A DNA stretch of 46,916 nucleotides, taken from contig DATLAK010000179.1 of the NCBI GenBank assembly GCA_035527535.1, positions 1-46,916 on the forward strand, in the 5' to 3' direction. The notes under the pieces are model-generated. The model was not told the DNA's origin. It did no database searches and was given only the letters and a program-made list of their open reading frames with translations. This DNA is from Armatimonadota bacterium (GTDB lineage: Bacteria; Armatimonadota; Hebobacteria; GCA-020354555; CP070648). A program made the position numbers and the translations under genes. Positions 32,817-41,029 of this stretch are shown piece by piece; position 1 is the stretch's first letter; every line of letters begins with the position of its first letter.

Positions 32817-32927
32817 CACAGACCGGTGAGGCGGCGAGGTCCGCAGTCCACCTGCTCGACTGCGCACCAGCACCTGGCCCTGCAAGCGGTGCCACCTCGA
32901 CGCAACGGTAGCTGGAGCGAATCTCAG

Positions 32928-33860
32928 ATGCCTGACGTCAAGATTCCCGACAACGTCAGTCACCCGCTGGCCGACGTGATCCGCGAGCGGCTGGGCTGCG
33001 CCCAATCTGCGAGCCTCGCTGTAGCCTTCCTGCGCCGCTCAGGCTTGCGCATGGTCGGGAAGCCTCTGGCGAGGTTTCTCGAGCGCGGAACGCACGCGGA
33101 GTGCATATTCGGTTTCGACTACATGTTCACGGAGCCTGAGGCTCTCACCGATCTTATGGACCTCTCGCGCTCGCATCCGGGGCTGCGCTTCTTTGGGTTC
33201 CTGGGCCAAGCGGGCGAGGAAGGCATCTATCATCCCAAGCTCTACATCTTCCGCGAAGATGTCCTCACGCACGTGATTGTGGGCTCGTCAAACCTTACTC
33301 GCGGGGGGCTCCGCCAGAACCTGGAGGCGAACGTTCTTCTATCAGGCGCACCAAGGGACCCGCCGATAGTGGAGGCGGAACATCTTTATCGCGATGTGCG
33401 GAACGACGACTCGCTGTTCACGCCCGACGCGGAATACGTCGTTCGGTATGGCGAGCTATACAAGGCGTCTCGATCTGCACGGGGGACAGGGGCCAGTCGC
33501 GCCGCGATCGTCCGGCTGCGCCGCGAACTGGAGCGCCGCCAAGAGGCGTTGCCAGGGACCGTCCCGACGCAGAGACAATTGATTGCCGAGGCAATTCGCA
33601 CGTTGAGAAGAGATGCGCAGGAGTTCGTCCATCTCAGAGACATCGCGGCGTGGGTGGAAGACGAGGCCCGACGTCGACGTCTGCAGTTCAAGTGGGACAC
33701 TTTGCGCAATAGCGTTCGCGGGCGGCTAAATGAACACACTGTCGGGAAAAGCGGGGACGACCTCTTCGAACGGCAGGGCGGGGTAGGTGGCCGCTATGGA
33801 CGCTATCGCTTGACCGAGAAAGGTGATCTGCTAAGGATGCGACCAACACCGGTCGAGTAG
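32928..33860 (+). CDS. PLD-type nuclease with C-terminal HARE-HTH-like winged helix
   Basis: A 310-residue protein. Residues about 15-165 form one phospholipase-D-like (HKD) domain: ASLAVAFLRRSGLRMVGKPL, IFGFDYMFTEPEAL, and the catalytic EGIYHPKLYIF (His about 102) with VIVGSSNLTRGGLRQN. A single HKD per chain implies a dimer, as in BfiI/NgoFVII-type nucleases. Residues about 205-305 (IAEAIRTLRRDAQEFVHLRD to GRYGRYRLTEKG) fit a winged helix of the HARE-HTH type found in restriction and DNA-modification systems. No methyltransferase or helicase is adjacent. The G+C content is lower than in pmbA, suggesting acquisition. Role may be DNA defence; unproven. ATG 32928 has GGAG about 10 bases upstream. 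Confidence 0.65.
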   Translation: MPDVKIPDNVSHPLADVIRERLGCAQSASLAVAFLRRSGLRMVGKPLARFLERGTHAECIFGFDYMFTEPEALTDLMDLSRSHPGLRFFGFLGQAGEEGIYHPKLYIFREDVLTHVIVGSSNLTRGGLRQNLEANVLLSGAPRDPPIVEAEHLYRDVRNDDSLFTPDAEYVVRYGELYKASRSARGTGASRAAIVRLRRELERRQEALPGTVPTQRQLIAEAIRTLRRDAQEFVHLRDIAAWVEDEARRRRLQFKWDTLRNSVRGRLNEHTVGKSGDDLFERQGGVGGRYGRYRLTEKGDLLRMRPTPVE

Positions 33861-35092: not shown

Positions 35093-35506
35093 TCACGCGT
35101 TCTTCGGTTCTTCCCTCACAAGATCGCCCTTTCGGACCTTTGTCCGCTCGCTAGCCAGAGGCTCCACAGCATCATCGTCTACGGGCAGCTGATCTCTGCG
35201 TCGCACGCTGACCTCTCGCGGCGAAGTAAGCAGTGAAAGCGCCGCGAAGGGAGGCGCCTGTGTCCGCGTGTACGTTCGGACGACGGTGAGCGCAAACGTC
35301 AGGCTTTCCTGCACTTCCTCGGCCACCACTCTACCCTTGACTATCTCGAGCCTCTCGATATCGTTGTTGGTAATGGGATCGTTGATCATGTCGCCTTCCT
35401 CGTAGATGATGAAGGCCATCCCTCGCGTTACGCCCTGCTGGCGGCCGATGTTCAGCACAACCTGCGTTGGGCTCACTATCCGCGCTATCCTACCTGTAAG
35501 AGGCAT
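35093..35506 (-). CDS. Small protein with a FlgT-C-like beta domain
   Basis: A 137-residue protein. It reads LTGRIARIVSPTQVVLNIGR, then GVTRGMAFIIYEEGDMINDP, and later EIVKGRVVAEEVQESLTFAL: the small beta-barrel pattern 'no signal-G..V..G..F.VY..G' that I associate with the FlgT C-terminal family. No signal peptide or membrane helix. Its ATG at 35506 (AAGGAG about 10 bases before) overlaps the end of the membrane-protein gene by 17 bases. Function unknown. The same motif appears in that membrane protein. Confidence 0.6.
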   Translation of the reverse strand: MPLTGRIARIVSPTQVVLNIGRQQGVTRGMAFIIYEEGDMINDPITNNDIERLEIVKGRVVAEEVQESLTFALTVVRTYTRTQAPPFAALSLLTSPREVSVRRRDQLPVDDDAVEPLASERTKVRKGDLVREEPKNA

Positions 35507-36440
35507 CGTCGATTGGCTCCTTCTGATCCAACTCGGATTCACCCACAAGTCGTTGCCCAAGCTGCGAGGCTACCCTTACGAGTGCGGCAAGCGCGTCAAG
35601 AGACAAGCCCTCCAGCGGCTCTGGCACCAGAGCCCTCGCTATGCGGTGAGATAGGCGGCGCAGCTGCAGAGCGCCGGGAGCCGCAATCGGGGCACGCCTC
35701 GCAGCATCCATTTCCGCCGCGGACGTAGCTTCCGGGTCGAAAACCGCGTGTGATATCTTGTGCTGCACGTGCACCACAACGGCTCGGCCGACCTCCGTCT
35801 CAGCGGGTTCCGGCAGGCCGGCGACGCTGTGACGCTGATATACGCGGAACAGAGATCCAGGACTCACATTATGCTGCTCGCCCGCGTGAAGTATTGCACA
35901 AAGTGAGCCATCCTCGCGGAAATAATAGTTGAGCACGTCGCATTCGGCGCATGCCTGACGCACCATCACCCCTTTGAGCGCCGTGTCAGCGTGAGCCCCC
36001 AAGGAGTCCGCGAACTGCCGGAGCGCCTCGCGCACGGCGAGCCGTTCAACCTCGAGCACCGATTCCCGAGCGCTTGCTGTTGTCTCCTGGTGCTCCCTCC
36101 GTGCGACATGAAGAGTGTCAGATAGACCACGCGCTTTGTCCGAGGAGCGAAGTCCCCACACGACCAACAGGGCCGCGACGAGTAGCAGGGCGATCACAGC
36201 CATAGCGAAATAGGATGCCGCGTAACGCAGGATAGCGTTCTCCTGCGTGGGGGCCCGCGACAATACCGTGCAGCGGATGGCCCATACAAAATACGAAAGT
36301 CCGCATGCAGCCGCAAACACGAGGAGGGACCTGTACTTTCGCGCAACGTGCCAGAGGTACACGGCCCCCGATACGACGGTCACCGCGGCCGCGACCGCCC
36401 CGCCTGTCGTCTTCAAAGCGTCCAACAGGATGCTCAACAT
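35490..36440 (-). CDS. Membrane protein of unknown function with FlgT-C-like region
   Basis: A 316-residue protein with three N-terminal helices (about 12-35 AVAAAVTVVSGAVYLWHVA; 38-57 SLLVFAAACGLSYFVWAI; 75-100 AMAVIALLLVAALLVVWGL), a helical, probably coiled stretch (HVARREHQETTASARESVLE), and a soluble C-terminal domain with CAECDVLNYYFREDGSL and NVSPGSLFRVYQRHSVAGLP. The last resembles the domain of the next gene. It starts 4 bases after the MCE gene with GGAGCGG upstream, so it is probably co-expressed with it. G+C is lower than in the MCE gene. No family recognised. Confidence 0.65.
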   Translation of the reverse strand: MLSILLDALKTTGGAVAAAVTVVSGAVYLWHVARKYRSLLVFAAACGLSYFVWAIRCTVLSRAPTQENAILRYAASYFAMAVIALLLVAALLVVWGLRSSDKARGLSDTLHVARREHQETTASARESVLEVERLAVREALRQFADSLGAHADTALKGVMVRQACAECDVLNYYFREDGSLCAILHAGEQHNVSPGSLFRVYQRHSVAGLPEPAETEVGRAVVVHVQHKISHAVFDPEATSAAEMDAARRAPIAAPGALQLRRLSHRIARALVPEPLEGLSLDALAALVRVASQLGQRLVGESELDQKEPIDDASYR

Positions 36441-36444
36441 GTTG

Positions 36445-37884
36445 CTACCGCTCCGCGCGGATGCCGATGGCGGGGCTGCCGTCGCCCCCCACCTTGCGAT
36501 AGCCGGTGATCGCGCTCCAGCCGTCGAGGCTCCCTCCCAGGCCCCACCGCCCGAAGACGTTGGCCCGCAGGTCATTGGGATCGAAGACCTCGGCGCTCAG
36601 GGTCAGCCACGGAGTCACAGGCCAATCATAGCCCAGGCCGATCTCGGACTCGACGAGGCCGTAGCGCAGCCGCCCCGGCCCCAGGCCCTGTCCCATCTGG
36701 AAGTTGAGGCGGTTGGTCTCCCCCAGATCGGCCGCTCCCAGGCGCACCAGGCGATCGCGGCTGGACAGGTCAACATTGGCATCCACCCACCAGCGGCCAT
36801 CGCGGGTCAGGTACTGGGCGCCAGCGTTGAGATCGGCCCGGACGGGGGGGAGCTCGCCGATCGCCTTGGCCGCCTCGGCGGCGCGGCCGGTCACCTGGGA
36901 CAAGCCGGTGCGCGCCTCGTGCGTGATCTCCTTGATCTCGGCCGAGGCGTCGCGGATGTTCTCGGAGGCCGCGCGAGCATTGGACATGATGTCGGGCACC
37001 TGGCGCGCTCCCTCCGCGATGACGGTGGCCGCCTCGCGGATGCGGTCCGAACTGTCGCGCAGACTGCGCGCGGCGTCCTTGGCGAAGTCCTTCATCTCCG
37101 GGTCCGCCGCCAGCTCCTGGAACTGGGCGGCGATGTCATCCACGCGCTCGACGACGCTGCGCAGCCGCCGCGCCGTTTCCTCCAACTCCGCGGGCACCTC
37201 GCTCTCGGTCGCGGCGCGTGCCACCGCCTGCGAGGTTTCGCGCAAGTCCCGTGTCACCCCCTCGACGTTGGCCAGCGTCGCCTGCACCCGCGGGCGGGTC
37301 TCCTGCGCCATGCCGCCCAGGGTGCGCGCGAGATCCCCCATGTCGCGCGCCGCCCGCCCCAGGCTCGCCAGCGACTGCTCCACCAACAGCCGCATCTCCC
37401 GGTTCTGCACCAGCGCGGTCACTGACTCCACCGCCTCCGTCAGCCGTCCCACCAGCCTCTGCGCATCCGCCAGCAAGTCCTCGACCCGCAGCGAGGACTC
37501 ACCCTTCACCTGCGCCCCCGGCTCCAGCGGCGCGCCCGCCCGCTCGTCGGACACCGGCGTGATCTCCACCGACTTCTCCCCCAGCAGCACCCCCGGCGCG
37601 ACGCGGATGTCGTAGCCCCAGCGCACCACCACCCCGTCGCGGATGCGCAGCCGCACCAATGCCCGATTGCCCGGCGTCAGACCGACCGACTCCACCTGGC
37701 CCACCGTCACCCCCGCCATCGTCACGCCGTCGCCCGCCCGCACCTCCGCGCGCTCGAACAAGACGTCCAGGGGGTAGCCCGCGCGCGCCGCGTAGAGGCC
37801 GATGAAGTAGTACAGGATCAGCGCCAGCACCACCAGCGCCGCCACCACCACCAGGCCCACTTTCACCTCCGCGCCGGATTTCAT
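36445..37884 (-). CDS. MlaD-type MCE protein with long helical and C-terminal beta region
   Basis: A 479-residue envelope protein for phospholipid movement between the membranes. One N-terminal anchor helix (VGLVVVAALVVLALILYYFIG, residues 9-29), one MCE/MlaD domain (about 38-112: GYPLDVLFERAEVRAGDGVT, VTVGQVESVGLTPGNRALVR, GVLLGEKSVEITP), a long helical region (about 135-355) that could build a hexameric needle, and a C-terminal ~110 residues of amphipathic beta-strands (RLRYGLVESEIGLGYDW, WLTLSAEVFDPNDLRANVFG) suggestive of an outer-membrane or barrel-like domain. It is separated from mlaF by 150 bases with a hairpin. Confidence 0.85.
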   Translation of the reverse strand: MKSGAEVKVGLVVVAALVVLALILYYFIGLYAARAGYPLDVLFERAEVRAGDGVTMAGVTVGQVESVGLTPGNRALVRLRIRDGVVVRWGYDIRVAPGVLLGEKSVEITPVSDERAGAPLEPGAQVKGESSLRVEDLLADAQRLVGRLTEAVESVTALVQNREMRLLVEQSLASLGRAARDMGDLARTLGGMAQETRPRVQATLANVEGVTRDLRETSQAVARAATESEVPAELEETARRLRSVVERVDDIAAQFQELAADPEMKDFAKDAARSLRDSSDRIREAATVIAEGARQVPDIMSNARAASENIRDASAEIKEITHEARTGLSQVTGRAAEAAKAIGELPPVRADLNAGAQYLTRDGRWWVDANVDLSSRDRLVRLGAADLGETNRLNFQMGQGLGPGRLRYGLVESEIGLGYDWPVTPWLTLSAEVFDPNDLRANVFGRWGLGGSLDGWSAITGYRKVGGDGSPAIGIRAER

Positions 37885-39775: not shown

Positions 39776-41029
39776 CTACGAGTCGGGCGGCGGCTGGCCG
39801 TCCTCGTTGAGCAACGGGCAACAGTCGTAGTGAAACGCCATCCAGAGCCTATCGGACAAGGTCTTCGCGGCCGCGCCCACTTGCAGCGGATAAGGGAACT
39901 GCATCGGCGGAATCTCAAGATGCTGTTCGTGCTCCCACGCAGTGAAGCGACGGCGATGCGGCGGCGTCATCCTTCGGCCGCTGTCTGGGCGTCCGTTCTG
40001 CAGCCGTAGGCCCCGCGCATTGAATATGCTCAGTCCGACGACGATGGGCTCCGTTAACCCCGCATGGTCGGCGAGCGCCCCAACGAAGCGCAAGAAGCTG
40101 GCCGGATATCGGACGAGTGGCCAGCGGTTGATGGTTGTGTACTCTCGCTCGTCCTCTCCAGTCATCTTGTCCAGGAAGCGGGTCTCACGGGAGATGCGGG
40201 CGCGGAACTCTGCATGACCGTTGCGGAACACGTCCAGCCTATGCCAGCCTTCGCACTCAGCCACCAACCCATATAGGGAAGGCAGCACGTGTTGCGCCTC
40301 GAACCATATCGTCCAATCATCTCCAAGAGGGTCCAGCGGTCCCGGTCCGGTCATCAAGTTCCTCACCGCCGGGTAGGCGGTGTCTATGATTTCGTCCTTG
40401 ACAATCAGCGGCGTTGCCGTCACTACGAGGTGTGGCTGATCTCCGATCTGCGCCATGATCTTGCCGCGCCGCTCCGCCAGGAAGTCCTCAAGGCTGCGGC
40501 GGATGTTCTCTGTGCGGGTGCATGCCTCCCGTATCTCATCGATGCTCATCTTATGCTTCTGGCGGCCCTGTCTCCTCCAGCATTGGTACAGGCCCTTGAA
40601 GGTAATCATGTGTGGCGCGCGGGTGCTCCTGGGGACAAACCAGACAATCACCTGCTTGCCTTCAGTCGCGGGGACCACCGCGAAATTGAGTCCGAGGATT
40701 CGCTCTCCAATGCTGGCCAGGCAGCAGGACATCATGCGAGCCGCTTCTTCCTCGGCGTTAGCGATGCCCACGATCCGCGCGGCCTTGTCCTCGCCGTCCT
40801 CCTCAATCCCGATGAGCAAGTGCCCACCTACGGCGTTTGCTAACGCCGTGATGTCCCGGAGCATCTCGCGGGTCTCTTCGTCGTCGTGCCGATAGGCCTT
40901 GCCCTTGAAGTCGAGCCGATCCGATTCCTCGACCTCTATCAGACCATTCAGGTCTTCAAGCGTTATCTCTGCGAGTGGCTTGGAGAAAACCGAAGACACC
41001 TGAGCATGTCCCCCGCAAGCCCTTCTCAT
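39776..41029 (-). CDS. AlbA_2 (Schlafen-type) domain protein
   Basis: A 417-residue protein with an AlbA_2 domain at residues about 25-155: EESDRLDFKGKAYRHDDEE, then MLRDITALANAVGGHLLIGI and MSIDEIREACTRTE. This domain binds nucleic acid and occurs in many predicted regulators and phage-defence proteins. The C-terminal 250 residues (from VVTATPLIVKDEIIDT) are not recognised; no winged helix or ATPase is evident. Codon use and G+C are lower than in the neighbouring pdx and mla genes, suggesting transfer. The start is not certain; the first ATG lacks a clear ribosome site. Confidence 0.7.
   Translation of the reverse strand: MRRACGGHAQVSSVFSKPLAEITLEDLNGLIEVEESDRLDFKGKAYRHDDEETREMLRDITALANAVGGHLLIGIEEDGEDKAARIVGIANAEEEAARMMSCCLASIGERILGLNFAVVPATEGKQVIVWFVPRSTRAPHMITFKGLYQCWRRQGRQKHKMSIDEIREACTRTENIRRSLEDFLAERRGKIMAQIGDQPHLVVTATPLIVKDEIIDTAYPAVRNLMTGPGPLDPLGDDWTIWFEAQHVLPSLYGLVAECEGWHRLDVFRNGHAEFRARISRETRFLDKMTGEDEREYTTINRWPLVRYPASFLRFVGALADHAGLTEPIVVGLSIFNARGLRLQNGRPDSGRRMTPPHRRRFTAWEHEQHLEIPPMQFPYPLQVGAAAKTLSDRLWMAFHYDCCPLLNEDGQPPPDS

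Follow-up and report, generated by a model that had tools for sequence, protein, structure and literature searches.

Two genes of no obvious assignment lie directly behind an mce gene in an Armatimonadota genome, and their position raises the question of whether they serve the lipid transporter of that operon or form a separate module that came to rest there. In the window, by which we mean the whole 46,916-nucleotide stretch of DNA analysed here, the genes that bear on this question are the following:

39583-38801, minus strand: mlaE
38799-38035, minus strand: ABC ATPase
36445..37884, minus strand: MCE/MlaD gene (MlaD, E 2.2e-9), a neighbour outside the module
35490..36440, minus strand: P0001, the membrane partner, 316 amino acids
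35093..35506, minus strand: P0002, a small soluble FlgT_C-like protein of 137 amino acids from the phrog_27728 family
35002-34298, minus strand: nth, endonuclease III, downstream of P0002

The coordinates bear out the tight packing described in an earlier note on this DNA: four bases (CAAC) separate the MCE stop codon (36447-36445) from the ATG of P0001 on a common strand, and the P0001 and P0002 genes overlap by 17 bases. P0002 itself starts with an ATG, with an AAGGAG site 10 nt upstream.

The four-base spacing behind mce, on the same strand, speaks for the earlier note's proposal that the pair is a new accessory module of the MCE lipid transporter. We regard this as very improbable and reject it on the evidence of class relatives and of other loci that carry the pair. 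First, the pdxST-mlaE-ABC-mce block is old in the class. In a genome of the same family (G001), pdxS-pdxT-mlaE-ABC-mce is contiguous and pair-free, followed by an aldo/keto reductase gene (label assigned by eye), and mce relatives occur in 11 of 14 class genomes. By tblastn, neither P0001 nor P0002 was found in any of the seven class MCE regions fetched, two of which extend only about 650 bases (L129) and 780 bases (L130) past mce. Second, across the 607 kb of the 51 other pair loci, tblastn gave zero matches for the window's MCE and MlaE proteins; its ABC ATPase matched three of these loci, as expected of so common a family. In these regions and loci, the pair shows no conserved co-occurrence with MCE genes. 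Third, the composition of the pair is foreign. Its GC3 values are 0.685 and 0.681, against 0.906-0.953 for nth, mce, ABC, mlaE, pdxT, pdxS, tldD and tldE, which confirms the lower G+C already remarked upon. Because the pair lies so far below its neighbours in GC3, a chance insertion, which the earlier note had kept as its own alternative, is the better reading. As to traces of integration, the window contains no tRNA and no convincing repeats flank the pair. We are highly confident that the pair is independent of MCE, and the case cautions that operon-like spacing behind mce should not be taken for function.

Two other genes of the window may be recorded in their own right. An SLFN_AlbA_2 gene (39776-41029, minus strand; E 1.9e-12; GC3 0.751) lies between pdxT and mlaE, has a weak PADLOC match to PDC-S50 (E 1.3e-4) and is missing at the corresponding place in G001. 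A gene for a PLD-family protein (32826-33860, plus strand) weakly resembles DrmC and type IV restriction models (E about 1e-6) and, with a GC3 of 0.710, is another low-GC3 gene close to the pair.

What, then, do the two genes encode? P0002 is a single domain. Its residues 4-131 match positions 6-139 of the 143 in the phrog_27728 profile (E 5.6e-6), an already known PHROG without assigned function that all 32 aligned small proteins match; the partner gene and the exchange of effector parts described below are what we add to it. An HMM of the family built without P0002 recovers it at E 2.4e-20. Against Pfam FlgT_C (PF16538), P0002 scores 20.5 bits (E 6.5e-4), below the gathering cut-off of 27 bits, and its relative at L094 scores 27.9 bits; 22 of the 32 small proteins match FlgT_C at E<=0.1. 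The AlphaFold2 model of P0002 (core pLDDT >90) has strands at residues 4-12, 15-18, 31-42, 49-65, 70-74 and 129-132, and its top PDB match is the C-terminal domain of FlgT (FlgT residues 268-356; Foldseek E 2e-4). Against FlgT structures it reaches Z 10.1-10.8 over 88-89 residues at an rmsd of 3.0-3.4 Å, followed by the crown barrels of F1-ATPase (Z about 9). Solved FlgT chains have 352-356 residues, so P0002 is not a full FlgT. Its only PADLOC match is to a homing endonuclease (E 0.014), and viral scans with P0002 alone or P0001 alone returned no matches.

This fold raises the prospect that the pair is an accessory of an envelope machine, like FlgT, TsaP or the CsgG-type lipoproteins. The FlgT match favours such a role, as do profile matches to TsaP/LysM proteins (E 5.8e-9 and 3e-7) and the CsgG-type fusions that turned up in the same search. 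We nevertheless consider it quite improbable, because no signal peptide is evident by eye in the printed small proteins, no TM helix was predicted in the set checked, and the genes occur in prophage, plasmid and restriction contexts.

These contexts emerged from searches with the small protein. A tblastn search of plasmids with P0002 led to a Haladaptatus megaplasmid and a Megaera plasmid, one of which led on to a Psychrobacter plasmid; on all three, the small gene stands behind the gene for a 2-TM protein, with an overlap or a distance of at most 12 bases. A search with four aligned small proteins yielded 60 loci on genome contigs and 15 on viral ones. The matches split into CsgG-type proteins of about 300 amino acids with the domain at their C terminus and stand-alone proteins of about 120-170 amino acids. 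The CsgG-type proteins (L021, L024 and most of L028-L065), from Verrucomicrobia, Brocadiaceae and others, are a separate setting of the FlgT_C-like domain. From 126 loci, 59 were stand-alone, and removal of cut, fragmentary and duplicate cases left 51 distinct ones (dropped were L031 and L073, with the 5' end cut; L015 and L108, fragments; and L155, L156, L143 and L079, duplicates or near-duplicates).

A partner gene lies directly upstream of 41 of these 51 small genes, with TM helices in 37 cases and a TIR domain in 4; TM calls follow a simple hydropathy threshold, and L086, in which the overlap exceeds the script's limit, and the four TIR loci were entered by hand. The two genes overlap at 25 of the 40 junctions measured. 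As a loose control, a TM-containing ORF of at least 60 amino acids is directly upstream of 18 of 67 longer, mostly CsgG-type, copies. Ten of the 51 have no clear TM or TIR partner (L017, L018, L022, L025, L080, L135, L138, L149, L151 and L152), among them L018, where a TIR-type partner close to the contig start is represented by its C-terminal half alone, and L080, with a coiled coil and no TM helix found.

The pair is a horizontally moving two-gene module of patchy distribution. Stand-alone copies span bacteria, archaea, plasmids and prophages. Within the window's phylum, phrog_27728 has matches in 35 of 291 genomes, for the most part in long frames; in other phyla, it has them in 6 of 398 genomes of the phylum of the Rhodoferax locus (G294), in 4 of 398 of that of Sporosarcina (G291) and in 4 of 294 of that of Methanophagales (G297). 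The pair nearest to that of the window is at L094, from the same phylum (P0002 E 1.1e-18), and the next nearest proteins to P0002 are archaeal and from Cloacimonadota. In the reverse direction, searches with partners matched 5 of 229 and 1 of 229 genomes, five of these six already being known through the small gene. The small gene lies downstream in all six and also in a new viral locus (L173), which hints that the partner is not retained without the small protein; the converse occurs. Close relatives were sought by tblastn in phage records, with four found for the L078 protein and none for P0005 or the L070 protein.

P0001 is predicted to comprise N-terminal TM helices, a long helix and an FlgT_C-like beta domain at about residues 160-273. 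Its AlphaFold2 model has a mean pLDDT of 67, and about 75-87 in the beta region, with strands at residues 160-174, 180-185, 197-204, 213-226, 229-234 and 266-273 in the same order as those of P0002. For the barrel, the matches are to F1 crowns at Z 8.2 and to FlgT at Z 7.9, values in the range in which a match may reflect a mere common arrangement. Cap15 and other barrel families are not among the fold matches listed for P0001, which proves nothing either way. The earlier note had suggested that both proteins carry one FlgT_C-like domain, and the structural comparison that it called for agrees: the predicted strand order is identical, and FlgT and the F1-ATPase crown barrel are among the matches of either model.

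Profile searches in both directions point the same way. BLASTP aligns residues 183-233 of P0001 with residues 17-73 of P0002 at E 6e-4. Among 6,573 ORFs of the window and the loci, an HMM of 31 small proteins, built without P0002, ranks P0001 151st (E 0.18), below small or CsgG-type matches and one 60-amino-acid fragment and directly ahead of the L094 partner (E 3.4). Conversely, an HMM of 22 partner beta regions, built without P0001, finds at E<1, after the partners, only small proteins from the same operons (seven distinct). Aligned by hhalign, the partner and small-protein profiles give E 3.5e-4, with a probability of only 37% and an unchanged register. The sequence evidence is thus weak for P0001 and P0002 alone and reciprocal at the level of the families, and we reject a chance similarity of the two domains on the reciprocal HMM results and predicted folds.

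Whether P0001 belongs with the other partners is a related question. Neither the beta-region nor the full-length HMM of 22 other partners retrieved it (E<=1). It lies directly upstream of a small gene and has predicted TM helices and a predicted C-terminal barrel, and BLASTP aligns it with the L094 partner at E 7e-5. We treat it as a divergent partner, chiefly on account of its architecture, its position and its predicted fold, with weak alignments in addition. A match of P0001 to an asrA-like ferredoxin protein in G008 (L004) was judged to be chance. In PADLOC, P0001 has no match, and the 22 other partners reach at best E 0.0072 against effector models, with no strong match across families. 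The partner has no meaningful score in Pfam, NCBIfam or PADLOC, and its profile matches solved structures only in the TM region (best E 0.005).

The typical partner is a 2-TM protein that ends in the barrel fold of the small protein, and its N-terminal part is exchanged between lineages. In archaeal and Cloacimonadota loci (L016, L019, L027 and L157/L171), a TIR domain replaces the TM part. Four partners carry an N-terminal PF10137 CAP12/Pycsar TIR (E 1.1e-3 to 6.9e-6), with L019 (26.5 bits) and L027 (26.4 bits) above the cut-off of 24.7 and L171 (21.0 bits) and L016 (19.3 bits) below it. These TIR partners share the C-terminal beta region of the 2-TM partners at E 4e-18 to 6e-21, by an HMM that included three TIR-partner sequences and left out L157. 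Partners in Bacillota prophages combine 2-TM and coiled-coil parts with no recognised barrel, and the beta domain is not recognisable in the partner types of L087 and of the prophage loci L076-L082. A third partner type, with one TM helix and a helical part and again no recognised barrel, occurs in the window's phylum:

L087: 1022-1501 and 1501-1926
L086: 1059-1511 and 1438-1935

Abi-family genes follow three partnerless prophage small genes (Javan374, phi575 and L149), the gene in phi575 being annotated as Abi. The three are mutually similar (E 1e-18 or better) and share an invariant R-N-x-x-A-H motif, which can be read as HEPN-like; their profile matches an 'Abi family protein' in the PDB (8vz6) at E 2.7e-18. 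In Gram-positive prophages, one or two Abi-family genes come after a small FlgT_C-like gene at these positions:

L149: 6989-10271
L138: 3986-5429
L135: 3989-5465

The combination of a TM or TIR part with a barrel parallels both OptE/Cap15 and PycTM/PycTIR. Between them, three published sources describe OptE/2TM-beta and Cap15 as 2-TM barrel effectors that oligomerise and break the inner membrane under the control of a barrel ligand, and Pycsar effectors as either TM or TIR proteins (PMC12657218, PMC12657230, PMC11224242). By this parallel, the pair could be a second-messenger effector system, with a synthase encoded elsewhere in the genome making a nucleotide to which the FlgT_C-like barrels bind. 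We consider that unlikely, as no nucleotide synthase or cyclase adjoins the pair in the loci read by eye or among the best 25 of 222 and best 25 of 155 families, and no PADLOC effector model matches the partners below E 0.007.

The genomic surroundings bear on what the module might do. Nine prophage loci have the small gene within the lysogeny module, flanked on the same strand by a repressor gene on one side and an integrase gene on the other; this order was found by BLASTP in 7 of 27 loci (L076, L080, L081, L082, L136, L149 and L150) and by annotation in Javan374 and phi575. Pfam assignments for 132 neighbours of 34 pair loci include six phage integrases and several phage regulators. Such a position would suit non-lethal superinfection exclusion, in which a membrane protein of the envelope, helped by the small protein, blocks genome entry by other phages without cell death, and small membrane proteins of comparable sort are known exclusion factors. 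The TIR versions and Abi neighbours, however, fit an intracellular effector better than a block to entry, and archaeal and chromosomal copies are not obviously prophages. Exclusion is in our judgement an unlikely account, and the most credible of the rivals weighed here.

Restriction genes adjoin other pairs. Two Type IIG restriction-methylase genes (PADLOC; best E 9e-277) adjoin TIR pairs, those at L016 and L171; of the two genomes, one is a Cloacimonadota MAG and the other archaeal. The restriction-methylase genes lie just upstream on the same strand:

L016: 3184-5994, Type IIG restriction-methylase-like gene, overlapping the TIR gene by 29 bases
L171: 11917-14967, Type IIG restriction-methylase-like gene

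The L086/L159 pair adjoins a type I restriction-like gene (label assigned by eye), and next to the Haladaptatus pair are a helicase-nuclease gene and a restriction endonuclease. At E 1e-8, pair neighbours (n=132) match 222 PADLOC families and CsgG-type neighbours (n=116) match 8, the larger tally being mostly the product of a few restriction genes that each match many models.

Our preferred reading, which we hold to be probable with some reserve, is that the pair is a conflict module that landed behind the mla/mce operon and is probably directed against phages, with a membrane effector and a small regulator. It resembles a membrane-attacking or cofactor-depleting switch against viruses. We assign the effector role to P0001 and that of protein regulator to P0002 because of the analogy to published 2-TM barrel effectors and Pycsar. 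P0001, with its TM helices, helical stalk and cytosolic FlgT_C-like barrel, would be the membrane effector, and P0002 would be a small soluble protein built on the same barrel. The small protein may dock on the effector's barrel and keep the effector silent, acting as a brake rather than an activator; where the partner has no barrel of its own, it might supply one in trans. A phage cue would then alter the small protein or its contact with the effector, and the released, presumably toxic, effector would oligomerise and break the membrane, leaving an infected cell that no longer supports the phage. In other lineages, a TIR domain would act on the same chassis in place of the TM helices. That the small gene is sometimes alone, that partners seemingly never are, and that some partners have no barrel together favour a role for the small protein as brake or sensor, supplying the barrel contact.

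Several observations count against this reading. The partner HMM missed P0001, the TM pairs of L161, L162, L165, L166 and L170 lie by eye among apparently ordinary chromosomal genes, and the defence tally is driven by few restriction genes. The partner types that show no recognisable beta domain and the ten small genes with no clear TM or TIR partner weigh on the same side.

We see about an even chance that the pair represents an undescribed family of conflict systems whose members are scattered over bacteria, archaea, plasmids and prophages. Two FlgT_C-like barrels would together make up the switch of such a system, the effector part would vary between membrane, TIR and Abi types, and P0002-type proteins would brake or sense where other systems use nucleotide signals. 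The open-access literature, exclusive of preprints and most subscription papers, yielded no description of the pair, which is not proof of novelty; papers on FlgT_C, PF16538 or phrog_27728 were by title unrelated or flagellar, with nothing on FlgT and anti-phage activity and nothing useful on TsaP/FlgT. FlgT_C is currently classified under flagellar assembly. Should the pairs prove to be defence modules, immunity would have taken over a structural domain for use as a switch, and phrog_27728, so far without a function, would acquire a role open to testing. Exchanging membrane, TIR and perhaps Abi parts around one barrel would also offer a handle on how a protein, rather than a nucleotide, might silence effectors.

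Among known systems, the S-2TM-beta effectors (CBASS Cap15 and Panoptes OptE) resemble P0001 in joining N-terminal TM helices to a C-terminal beta barrel, which in P0001 is predicted, and Panoptes resembles the pair in being a two-gene operon with a controlling partner. Unlike them, the pair has a small barrel protein as partner rather than a nucleotide synthase, its proteins have no sequence match to PADLOC models, and its barrel resembles FlgT_C and the F1 crown. Pycsar (PycTM/PycTIR) likewise swaps TM for TIR effector parts while keeping its regulatory chassis, and it shares the PF10137 TIR; our pairs differ in that no cyclase was seen adjoining and in having the TIR at the N terminus and the barrel at the C terminus. 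The C-terminal domain of FlgT, TsaP and the CsgG-type FlgT_C lipoproteins have the barrel fold and DPDTGE-type loop of the small proteins, which differ from them in being stand-alone and short, with no evident signal peptide, in an operon with an effector-like gene. Finally, members of the Abi family (PDB 8vz6; the phi575 Abi) follow three of the prophage small genes, an arrangement unlike that of the window, which has no Abi gene, and one in which the small gene comes first and the Abi gene second.
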